Notes under the pieces: model-generated
What the model was told of the DNA's origin: nothing
Databases searched by the model: none
What the model saw: the letters and a program-made list of their open reading frames with translations, nothing else
Shown here: positions 11,952 to 16,864 of the stretch, one piece after another
Position numbering within the stretch: the stretch's first letter is position 1
Layout of the letters: the number at the start of each line of letters is the position of its first letter
Assembly (NCBI GenBank): GCA_030613505.1
Contig: JAUWLW010000005.1
Coordinates: forward strand, 1-64,000
Length of the DNA stretch: 64,000 bases
From: Candidatus Zixiibacteriota bacterium
GTDB lineage: Bacteria > RBG-13-66-14 > B26-G2 > WVWN01
Direction: 5' to 3'
Made by a program: the position numbers and the translations under genes

Positions 11952-13130
11952 CTAACCCAGCTCGGCCGCTAAAGTCCCGACCGCCCGCTCGAGCAACGGC
12001 AAGTCGTCGTCGAGAACGCTCCGCATATCCACGTATACGGCGTCGCCGGTCGCGCGAGCCAGGACCGGCGGCTCGAGACGCCGCAACACGCCGCTTAACG
12101 CATGGGGCGAAAGGTGTTTATGCCTGAGCGCGACGACGAAAGTGGGCAAACGAACGTACGGCAGCGTCCCGCCGCCGACGTACGACTCCGCCCGGGCGGT
12201 GTTTATCTCCAAATCGGCCGCGTCGGCTTTCCGGAAGAAGGCGGCCGCGGCATGGGCTATCCGTTCCAAATCTTCTGCGGAGCGACTTAGCAGCCGGTAC
12301 GTCGGGACACCGTCCAACGCGCCGCCGTCGAGGTACTTCTCCAACACGGCACCGAGCAAAGCGTACGTCTCCTTCCCGACCCTCAGCGCGCGGTACATAC
12401 TATCGCCCCGCAACTCCCCGATAGCCGCGGCTTTCCCCACCGCGACGCCGCCTTGCGGGCCGCCGAGCAACTTGTCAGCCGAGAAACATACGACGTCGAC
12501 GCCCGCGTCCAACAAATTCTCCACCGACGGCTCGTCCTGCGAAACCAGGTCCGGATACAACGACGTACTAAGCAAACCGCTGCCCAAATCGTATAACACC
12601 GGCCTGCCGTACGCCGCGGCCAAAGCCACCACTTCGTCGGCGCGCGGCTCGTCGAACCGACCGCGATAGTAGAAATTGCTGCGGTGGGCCAGGACGACGA
12701 GCGACGCGCCGGCGTCGAGCGCGCGGCGGAAATCGTCGAGGCGCGTCACGTTGACCGTACCGACCGGCATAAGCTCGACGCCGCCGGAGGCCATAACCTC
12801 CGGTAGACGGAAGGCGCCGCCGATTTCGACTAGTTGGCCGCGGCTCGCCGCCGCGGGCCGGCCGCGGCCGAGGGCGTGGAGGGCAAGTAATACCGCGCCG
12901 GCGTTATTGTTTACCACCAAGGCGTCTTCGGCCCCCGTCAACTCGCGCAGCGGCGCCGCGACCAGGGCGTCGCGTTGGCCGCGCTCGCCGCTCTCCAGAT
13001 CCATCTCAAGGTTACAGTATCCCTCCAGGATTTGAGCGACGCGCTCGAGGATAACGGGCCCGAACGGCGCGCGGCCCGCGCCGGTATGCAAGATTACGCC
13101 GGTAGCGTTGATGACCCGCTTAATAAGCAT
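11952..13130 (-). CDS. selA: L-seryl-tRNA(Sec) selenium transferase
   Basis: 392 residues. A PLP enzyme that turns seryl-tRNA(Sec) into selenocysteinyl-tRNA(Sec) with selenophosphate. Family motifs: VINATGVILHTGAGRAPF near the N-terminus, NNNAGAVLL, and the PLP lysine K220 in FSADKLLGGPQGG. It lacks the roughly 60-70-residue N-terminal domain of E. coli SelA (463 aa), which helps bind tRNA(Sec); an in-frame stop six codons upstream excludes a longer product. A SelA-like homologue with another role cannot be excluded, but two in-frame-UGA genes 3.3 kb away support true Sec synthesis. selB, selC and selD are not in the window. Confidence 0.88.
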   Translation of the reverse strand: MLIKRVINATGVILHTGAGRAPFGPVILERVAQILEGYCNLEMDLESGERGQRDALVAAPLRELTGAEDALVVNNNAGAVLLALHALGRGRPAAASRGQLVEIGGAFRLPEVMASGGVELMPVGTVNVTRLDDFRRALDAGASLVVLAHRSNFYYRGRFDEPRADEVVALAAAYGRPVLYDLGSGLLSTSLYPDLVSQDEPSVENLLDAGVDVVCFSADKLLGGPQGGVAVGKAAAIGELRGDSMYRALRVGKETYALLGAVLEKYLDGGALDGVPTYRLLSRSAEDLERIAHAAAAFFRKADAADLEINTARAESYVGGGTLPYVRLPTFVVALRHKHLSPHALSGVLRRLEPPVLARATGDAVYVDMRSVLDDDLPLLERAVGTLAAELG

Positions 13131-14215: not shown

Positions 14216-14521
14216 GTGAAGTACCTAAAAGTCTTCATCGTTATCATGTTTGCGTTGGGCCTCGCGGCCGCCTTCGTGGGATGTAAGAAAAAAGAAGAAG
14301 CCCCCACCGCCGAGACCGCGGCCGAAACGGTAGCCGAGACGCCCGCCGAAGAAGAGGTAGCTTGTCCCGCCCCCGGCGAAGACCTCATCTGCGAAGATTG
14401 CAAGACGCTATTCATGACCGACGGGGAATACGCCTCTCACATGGAGGAAACGCACCCCGATAAGTGGGCTATGATGAAAGATAAGTTCTGGGAGATGCGC
14501 GAGACCGAGGGGGCCGAGTAA
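14216..14521 (+). CDS. Small lipoprotein with a C2H2 zinc-finger pattern
   Basis: 101 residues, GTG start with AGAGGAGG about 9 nt upstream. Residues 1-23 are a lipoprotein signal ending FVGC with Cys23 as lipidated residue. An Ala/Glu/Thr-rich linker follows. Residues 59-80 carry Cys59-x2-Cys62-x12-His75-x4-His80 (CEDCKTLFMTDGEYASHMEE), a complete classical C2H2 zinc-finger spacing with the inner aromatic Phe66. Such fingers are common in eukaryotes and archaea and rare in a predicted periplasmic lipoprotein. It might bind zinc, a peptide or another metal; function unknown. Confidence 0.88.
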   Translation: MKYLKVFIVIMFALGLAAAFVGCKKKEEAPTAETAAETVAETPAEEEVACPAPGEDLICEDCKTLFMTDGEYASHMEETHPDKWAMMKDKFWEMRETEGAE

Positions 14522-14639
14522 AGAAGAAGTAACAGGTTAACGCGCGAACGCTGCGTCCGGATGCTGCGGCTTATCGCCGCCGGTGCTTTCGATAACGGTC
14601 GGCGGGCCCGGTCGAACGCGGGGGGAATGTCGTAATAGT

Positions 14640-14828
14640 ATGCCCATTTACGAATTCAAATGCAACGAATGCGGTGCCGTTTTCGAGGTACTATGCCGTG
14701 ACGCCGACGGCTCTGAATGCCGGTGTCCGGATTGCGCCTCCGAGAAATGCCGCCGCTTAATATCCCTGGTGGTGACCAGGACGTCGAAACCCCGCACCGG
14801 CGAGGCGTGCAACGTTAGAGCAGGTTGA
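14640..14828 (+). CDS. FmdB-family small zinc-ribbon protein
   Basis: 62 residues starting MPIYEFKCNECGAVFEVLC, the typical FmdB/CxxC zinc-ribbon start, with two knuckles CNEC (8-11) and CPDC (30-33) that would bind one zinc. An extra pair, CRRL and ACNV, gives further Cys. The start at 14640 is chosen because the family begins MP-x-YE; GGGGGGAA lies about 12 nt upstream. Role of the family is not settled (often described as regulatory). Confidence 0.8.
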   Translation: MPIYEFKCNECGAVFEVLCRDADGSECRCPDCASEKCRRLISLVVTRTSKPRTGEACNVRAG

Positions 14829-15525: not shown

Positions 15526-16473
15526 ATGGCCGTAGAAGAACACGAGCTCGCCGTCGTGGGCGGCGGCCCCGCGGGCCTGACCACGGGTATTTACGCGGCC
15601 CGCAGCCGCGTAGACGCGATACTTCTGGAGGCCAAACCGTTGACGGGAGGCCAGATCTTACTAGCCGACGTCATCGAGAATTACCCGGGCTTCCCCGAAC
15701 CTCTCTCCGGCGCCGAACTGATAGAAAAGATGCAAAAACAAGCCGAGCGCTTCGGCCTGCAATTCGGCACGGCCGAAGTAACCAACGTTCGCGCTTTAAA
15801 ACGAAAATACCTTCTGGAAAGCGCGAAGGCCGATTACCTGGCGGAAGCGGTCGTCGTCGCGACCGGGACCGAAAGCCGCAAGCTCGGCGTGCCGGGCGAG
15901 GAGGATTTCTGGGGGATGGGCGTGTCGACTTGCGCCACGTGCGACGGGCCGCTCTACGGCGACAGGCCGGTGGCAGTAGTGGGCGGCGGCGACAGCGCCG
16001 TGAAGGAGGCCGTGTACCTCGCGAAGTTCGCGAGTAAAGTCTACGTTATCCACCGCCGGGACAGGCTGCGCGCCGAAAAAATCATACAGGAGCAAGCCTT
16101 CGCCCAGGAAAAGCTCGAGTTCGTTTGGTACACGGTCGTGACCGAGATGGTCGGCGGCGACAACGGCCTAACCGGCCTGAAGATCAAAAACGTCGAAACG
16201 GGAAACGAGCGTGAGCTGGACGTGGACTGCGTCTTCATCTACGTCGGCGTCGAACCGAATACCGGATTCGTAAAGGACCTGGTGGAGCTCGACGAGTCCG
16301 GCCTTATCGTAACGGACGAAGACATGCGGACCAGCGCGCCCGGCATCTTCGCCGCGGGCGATTGCCGCTCGAAGACCCTCAAGCAAGTCGCCACCGCGGT
16401 GGGCGAAGGGGCCGCGGCGGCCTTCTCCGCCCAGGAATACATCACCGGGGGGCCTTATGCCGGCAGCGGCTAA
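15526..16473 (+). CDS. trxB: Thioredoxin reductase (NADPH/FAD disulfide reductase)
   Basis: 315 residues. FAD site VVGGGPAGLTTGIYAARS at about 9-27, redox motif C136-A-T-C139 in the usual STCATCDG context, second nucleotide site VVGGGDSAVKEA, HRRDRLRA for NADPH, and the C-terminal FAD contact GIFAAGDCR. All key parts of the low-Mr thioredoxin reductase family are present. The stop overlaps the start of the first small selenoprotein candidate by 17 bp, so the reductase and the two membrane proteins are translationally linked. It may reduce them, or thioredoxin, as electron source; no thioredoxin gene lies in this operon. Confidence 0.95.
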   Translation: MAVEEHELAVVGGGPAGLTTGIYAARSRVDAILLEAKPLTGGQILLADVIENYPGFPEPLSGAELIEKMQKQAERFGLQFGTAEVTNVRALKRKYLLESAKADYLAEAVVVATGTESRKLGVPGEEDFWGMGVSTCATCDGPLYGDRPVAVVGGGDSAVKEAVYLAKFASKVYVIHRRDRLRAEKIIQEQAFAQEKLEFVWYTVVTEMVGGDNGLTGLKIKNVETGNERELDVDCVFIYVGVEPNTGFVKDLVELDESGLIVTDEDMRTSAPGIFAAGDCRSKTLKQVATAVGEGAAAAFSAQEYITGGPYAGSG

Positions 16474-16633
16474 AGTACTCCTGGGGGCGCTGGTTGGCGG
16501 CGCGCTGGGGTTCGGTTGGTTTTACCTAACGCGTTGCGCCGGCTCGGTTTGACCGGTGAGCTCGAGCCCGTGGCTCACGGGCGGCTTGGGCTCGGTAATC
16601 GGGGTGCTGTTCGCCACGTTGGCATGGCGGTGA
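16457..16633 (+). CDS. Candidate selenoprotein 1: small membrane protein with C-x4-U
   Basis: 58 residues if the in-frame TGA at 16550-16552 is read as selenocysteine (U32). The frame opens with ATG inside the end of trxB and runs to TGA at 16631. Residues 7-24 are a Gly-rich membrane helix (VLLGALVGGALGFGWFYL). Then come C27-AGSV-U32-PVSSSPWLTGG and a second hydrophobic segment. The layout (GxxxG helix, Cys, CP-x-x-S-x-P, Gly-rich helix) resembles the small DUF6132-type membrane proteins, in which Cys occupies the U position; that match is from memory. The downstream gene has TGA at the matching site. Only 31 codons precede the TGA, so without Sec the product would be a useless stub. Confidence 0.8.
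16553..16582 (+). promoter_or_regulatory. Possible SECIS hairpin after the first UGA
   Basis: Directly behind the TGA two alternative stems can form: GTGAGC/GCTCAC (16556-16561 with 16573-16578) and GCCCGTG/CACGGGC (16566-16572 with 16576-16582, loop GCT). Bacterial SECIS elements sit just 3' of the UGA within the reading frame. No strict consensus exists to confirm it. Confidence 0.45.
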
Positions 16634-16634
16634 T

Positions 16635-16820
16635 ATGCTCAAGCTCGGCATAGCGGCGTTGCTGGGGGCCGCGGGTTTCGCCGCGGGGTACTATTTCCAT
16701 CAACTCATGCTGGCGCCGGCGGATTGCGTTACTTGAGCCAGCCAGGGCTCGCCCTGGGTTACCGGGGCCATCGTCGCCGCCGTCGGCGTCATCGTCGCGT
16801 TGATGATAAAGACGAAGTAA
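16635..16820 (+). CDS. Candidate selenoprotein 2: small membrane protein with C-x2-U
   Basis: 61 residues with the in-frame TGA at 16734-16736 read as U34. The ATG lies one base behind the stop of its partner. Residues 3-27 form a Gly/Ala-rich membrane helix, then C31-VT-U34-ASQGSPWVTG and a second helix to residue 58. Aligned without gaps from U onward, it shares U-x4-SPW-x-TG with candidate 1, so the two are tandem paralogues and both place UGA at the same site next to a Cys. C-x2-U is a classical redox motif. Likely a membrane thiol/selenol relay with the upstream thioredoxin reductase; this role is inference. Confidence 0.8.
16737..16757 (+). promoter_or_regulatory. Possible SECIS hairpin after the second UGA
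   Basis: A 6-bp perfect stem CCAGGG/CCCTGG (16742-16747 with 16752-16757) with tetraloop CTCG begins 5 nt after the TGA, in the right place for a bacterial SECIS. Confidence 0.45.
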
Positions 16821-16838: not shown

Positions 16839-16864
16839 CGCCGGCCTCCGGGCCGGCGTTTTTT
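16839..16864 (+). terminator. Rho-independent terminator of the trxB-selenoprotein operon
   Basis: Stem CGCCGGCC/GGCCGGCG, loop TCCG, six T, 18 bp behind the second selenoprotein stop. It marks the operon end and shows that the frame past the UGA is transcribed. Confidence 0.9.

Follow-up and report, generated by a model that had tools for sequence, protein, structure and literature searches.

The window analysed in this study, a stretch of 64,000 nucleotides, carries a gene for thioredoxin-disulfide reductase (TrxR) at 15526..16473 on the forward strand (NCBIfam TIGR01292, 380 bits against a cut-off of 343). Directly behind it, on the same strand, lie two small frames with one in-frame TGA each. 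The first, P1 (16457..16633), overlaps the TrxR gene by 17 bases, has its in-frame TGA at 16550..16552 (residue 32), and ends on another TGA at 16631-16633. The second, P2 (16635..16820), starts one base past the P1 stop, has its in-frame TGA at 16734..16736 (residue 34), and ends on TAA at 16818-16820. A terminator-like GC hairpin with a T run was recognised in the sequence at 16840..16864, on the same strand. With U written for the in-frame TGA, P1 reads MPAAAKVLLGALVGGALGFGWFYLTRCAGSVUPVSSSPWLTGGLGSVIGVLFATLAWR and P2 reads MLKLGIAALLGAAGFAAGYYFHQLMLAPADCVTUASQGSPWVTGAIVAAVGVIVALMIKTK; the two align without a gap over U-x4-SPW-x-TG. The initial annotation had described the adjacent frames with their TGAs, the gap-free alignment from the TGA on, and the normal stops with a terminator behind, and all of this was found as described. 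Because of the overlap, the single-base spacing and the terminator-like hairpin, TrxR, P1 and P2 look like a single unit. Since P1 also terminates on TGA, this codon would serve in the P1 gene once for selenocysteine (Sec) and once as a stop.

We compared the window genome (G000) with three other genomes of its genus, Candidatus Coatesbacteria (G001-G003), and with G004, from another family of the same order. A search of the nearest genomes showed that both TGAs were kept in the three congeneric genomes, at identities of 54-90% for P1 and 67-89% for P2. P1 with its TGA was also found in G004. A P1-profile scan of public genome contigs gave names for two of these relatives and no others: CP070633.1, from a Candidatus Coatesbacteria bacterium, and WVWN01000084.1, whose record was deposited under Zixiibacteriota. 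The grouping of the search tool placed these two genomes and the window genome in one genus. In all six genome pairs, the first 13 codons past the TGA of P2 changed only synonymously, and the reading frame past the TGA of P1 was likewise intact to its end in the relatives. These comparisons indicate that the codons behind both TGAs evolve as coding sequence. A chance coincidence of the two frames had been called very unlikely, and the conserved TGAs and the synonymous changes in P2 exclude it.

The genes selB, selC and selD, which the initial annotation had proposed to look for in the genome, were all present, together with selA. The tRNA-Sec (selC) of the window genome scored 66.7 bits and has the anticodon TCA (ARAGORN). 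Its selD is a selenoprotein gene itself, with an in-frame TGA in the context AAGUAAKV (contig C23, 20762-21685, locus L016). The selenium transferase gene selA (11952..13130, reverse strand; TIGR00474, 403 bits against a cut-off of 268) lies in the window, as had been noted, but on the opposite strand and outside the P1/P2 operon. Both tRNA-Sec and selB were present in G001-G003. In G004, selB was clear and the tRNA-Sec match was below threshold (46.7 bits).

P1 matched the Pfam family DUF6132 (PF19628) with an E-value of about 1e-4 and a score of 22.5 bits, just below the gathering cut-off of 23.2. Over this cut-off, PF19628 gave 13 matches in 386 sampled genomes, and in 3 of the 13 a TGA occupied precisely the position of the second Cys in CX4C. 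Further members were gathered with an 18-sequence profile, 17 members of which, Sec forms among them, match PF19628 at E<=0.01. The resulting comparison set of 43 sequences contained 26 Sec and 17 Cys forms, a ratio that is not a frequency because Sec groups were followed up when sequences were collected, which enriched the Sec forms. Only G18, Cys/Sec32 and G49 were invariant across the set, and P1 shows the family features (two helices, G14, G18, CX4(C/U), P38, G45 and G49). It shares with the Cys members of DUF6132 the length, the two helices, GxxxG, the position of the CX4C motif and the thioredoxin-system neighbours, and differs from them in that the second Cys is replaced by Sec. A swap of Sec and Cys at this column was seen across many phyla. 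In a tree of the 43 sequences, built from a short alignment and with many forks open, we counted 7 Sec/Cys changes, at least 5 of them on well-supported branches. Of the 26 Sec-form genomes, 25 had a SelB over the cut-off, as against 10 of the 21 genomes carrying Cys forms (Fisher p 1.8e-4, the genomes not being phylogenetically independent); it was not found in the Sec-form genome G400. Judged by sequence, P1 belongs to DUF6132 as a Sec form, with Sec in place of the second Cys of CX4C.

The first Cys of the motif is more variable. It is absent from two Sec forms (G141 and G188) and from P2, and among Sec forms 3 to 7 residues separate it from Sec (L119, L122, L124, L126 and L127), with a spacing of 4 in nearly all Cys forms. 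Two Sec forms without the first Cys (L132:4963-5139 and L134:5022-5234) carry a new Cys four residues past Sec (UAITC and USIAC), possibly a swapped resolving residue. The TGAs noticed in two Cys forms (L055 and L057) are the normal stops of these genes and were not counted as Sec.

P2 had no match in Pfam. Profile-profile comparison aligned it with DUF6132 at 95%, Sec to Sec; because its support comes from this comparison without a Pfam match, we call P2 DUF6132-like and not a member. The DUF6132-type assignment of the initial annotation therefore holds for P1, and for P2 by profile-profile comparison only. A scan of the 386 genomes with a P2 profile gave nothing convincing beyond the genus. 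The annotation had also placed a Cys 3-5 residues ahead of each TGA and seen a selenol/thiol pair in each protein. This is correct for P1, in which Cys27 precedes Sec32, but not for P2: its Cys31 is private to the window genome, is replaced by L, Y and L in G001-G003, and P2 thus has no conserved CX4(C/U) pair. As Cys31 is unconserved, P2 appears to be a single-Sec protein, best explained by duplication as a genus-specific paralogue with Sec alone.

The SECIS criteria of a published model (PMC13188914) were applied with our own script across the DUF6132 family, covering 31 Sec and 17 Cys sites. A hairpin fitting the model was found after the P2 TGA in 4 of 4 genomes and after the P1 TGA in 4 of 5, G004 being the exception. 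SECIS scoring, a check suggested by the initial annotation, thus gave fitting hairpins near both TGAs in G000-G003. The P1 hairpin, GCCCGUG-GCU-CACGGGC (16566..16582), lies 20 nt after the UGA, and larger alternative folds were also predicted in some genomes. The P2 hairpin, GCCCUGG-GUUA-CCGGGGC (16751..16768), lies 21 nt after the UGA; its stem was identical in all four genomes, with the loop GUUA or, in G001, GUCA. Across the family, 20 of 31 Sec sites passed, compared with 1 of 17 Cys sites; the 11 Sec sites that failed include P1 of G004. The gain over codon-shuffled controls was greater at Sec sites than at Cys sites (Mann-Whitney p 7e-5). Rfam at the gathering threshold gave no match in the window, and near P1 and P2 only chance-level matches were seen. 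The apical loop GGUC occurred in seven other Sec forms. GGUC is the apical loop of the E. coli formate dehydrogenase SECIS.

TGA is the ordinary stop of 7 of the 49 window ORFs of at least 100 aa, and P1 itself terminates on it, as would be expected if both in-frame TGAs were true stops followed by frames open by chance. We consider this very improbable, because the frame, the synonymous changes and the SECIS hairpins continue past both TGAs and the corresponding column is Cys in homologues. A reassigned code, with TGA read as an amino acid such as Trp or Gly, would account for the open frames and nothing more; it is extremely improbable in a genome in which TGA terminates ordinary genes and tRNA-Sec, selA, selB and selD are present, with Cys at the site in homologues. 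The recoded TGA that the initial annotation had named as an objection thus did not apply here. A broken gene, plain chance and a reassigned code were all rejected on the comparative data. The Cys homologues that had been proposed as a check were found for P1, with 17 of the 43 family members carrying Cys at column 32; the P2 column was matched by profile comparison only. Together with the conserved TGAs, the SECIS hairpins and selA, selB, selC and selD in the genome, they uphold the central claim of two tandem membrane selenoproteins behind TrxR. On this genomic evidence, P1 and P2 almost certainly read through UGA as selenocysteine.

A thioredoxin gene was the immediate neighbour in 14 of 40 DUF6132 loci and the second gene in 9, and was rare beyond. 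These loci belong to several families, Sec and Cys forms alike, and in G004 a TrxR gene lies 26 bases upstream of the DUF6132 gene. Since thioredoxin genes adjoin DUF6132 in many other loci, the link does not depend on this window alone. One order was kept in L114, L115, L117, L119-L121, L123 and L147: a thioredoxin, in most a second thioredoxin with a hydrophobic N-terminus, DUF6132, OsmC and ArsR. The arrangement resembles a regulated operon for thiol or sulfur stress. Other neighbours of DUF6132 were rhodanese, a metallo-beta-lactamase/rhodanese fusion, DUF1858 and thioredoxin-like proteins. A thioredoxin with an N-terminal hydrophobic segment, a candidate for export, was present in some DUF6132 operons; none was seen at P1/P2.

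Two other small genes of the window were looked at. An FmdB-type zinc-ribbon gene (14639-14828) has a TGA followed by two codons and then TAA. FmdB is listed among the selenoprotein families, but the TGA of this gene has the look of an ordinary stop and was not counted as Sec. A small lipoprotein-like gene (14216-14521) showed weak similarity to the Sel_put/KCU-star C-terminus (E about 7e-4 and 0.04, below the cut-offs).

The predicted structure consists of a helix (3-25), a loop and a second helix (38-55), with a moderate confidence (pLDDT 73). GxxxG is present in both helices, and some members matched Pfam glycine-zipper families weakly. Lys plus Arg numbered 88 in the N-terminal and 110 in the C-terminal tails compared with 32 in the loop, and by the positive-inside rule the Sec loop is therefore predicted to lie outside the cytoplasm. 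As TrxR is cytosolic, the model would then require an exported thioredoxin or a step across the membrane. The proposal that the pair is fed by TrxR thus agrees with the gene linkage, here, in G004 and through adjacent thioredoxins in other phyla, but not simply with the predicted position of the loop. P1 and P2 may each form a membrane hairpin of two helices, with packing or oligomerisation via the GxxxG of both helices. At the outer face of the cytoplasmic membrane, Sec would attack and reduce a disulfide or persulfide substrate, with Cys27 as the resolving residue in P1. The thioredoxin system, encoded by adjoining genes, would recycle the oxidised form. P2, with Sec only, could be a one-selenol partner, perhaps resolved by P1.

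A glycine-zipper membrane hairpin of this kind, relaying thiols or selenols for disulfides or persulfides and recycled by the thioredoxin system, is a tentative reading that may well prove wrong. Its main rival assigns the same selenoproteins to sulfane-sulfur handling: Sec or Cys would accept sulfur from persulfide or polysulfide at the membrane and hand it on, and the thioredoxin system with rhodanese-type enzymes would free it as sulfide. The rhodanese, rhodanese fusion, DUF1858, OsmC and ArsR neighbours in other phyla point in this direction. However, TrxR is the sole redox neighbour in Coatesbacteria, and one large group with two thioredoxin neighbours is equally compatible with plain disulfide reduction, so that we regard a sulfane-sulfur role as rather unlikely. 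It is improbable that the proteins are small metal or metalloid carriers of the MerF/MerT type, whose Cys or Sec would pass a soft metal ion across the membrane. The small two-helix build and the Cys near the membrane would fit such a carrier, and small membrane selenoproteins are known from the mercuric transport protein family, but no member scanned matched a Mer family in Pfam or NCBIfam, no mer genes were noticed near DUF6132 genes, and P2 and the two Sec forms of G141 and G188 do without the first Cys. Taken as a whole, Sec readthrough, a Sec-form DUF6132 and a membrane thiol/selenol relay probably constitute the best explanation of the locus. The more specific model, which casts DUF6132 as a minimal transmembrane (seleno)thiol relay with two helices serving the thioredoxin system, a glycine-zipper oligomer formed in Coatesbacteria as a heteromer of Cys-Sec P1 and Sec-only P2, is speculative and more doubtful.

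DsbD and CcdA are membrane proteins with a Cys pair tied to thioredoxin, with 6-8 helices and the Cys inside the helices. They share with P1 and P2 the thioredoxin-linked membrane thiols, whereas here there is one two-helix hairpin, and Pfam and NCBIfam scans show no homology. Membrane selenoproteins already catalogued are the mercuric transport protein (PF02411) and YeeE/YedE (PF04143) (PMC13188914); Sec in a membrane protein is shared, but these are separate families with no sequence match to P1 or P2. The OsmC-like and DUF1858 selenoproteins are catalogued Sec families found beside DUF6132, but they are soluble and unrelated. DUF6132 is not among the 119 prokaryotic selenoprotein families in the table of the 2026 catalogue (PMC13188914), and NCBIfam had no matching model for the 18 members scanned. 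None of the nine named new families of deep-Sep (PMC12013277) is DUF6132, and its three unnamed hypothetical ones are excluded only by the NCBIfam non-match. PDB sequences contained no relative. The literature on DUF6132, Coatesbacteria selenoproteins and the operon neighbours held nothing relevant, the groundwater survey cited in the catalogue and most subscription journals being outside the scope of this search. No Sec form of DUF6132 is thus described in the sources consulted, and an earlier mention elsewhere is possible.

P1 is the Sec counterpart of family members known in the Cys form, accompanied by the genus-specific Sec-only paralogue P2, and a widespread selenoprotein family is thereby added. 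Because the genes have about 60 codons and are halved at the UGA, current annotation likely misses the Sec forms of DUF6132. The Sec/Cys exchange suggests that residue 32 is the working residue of the family. The thioredoxin neighbours give a direct lead to the function of DUF6132, via culturable Cys-form bacteria. If the relay is true, these hairpins would be a membrane conduit for electrons or persulfides much smaller than DsbD or CcdA.
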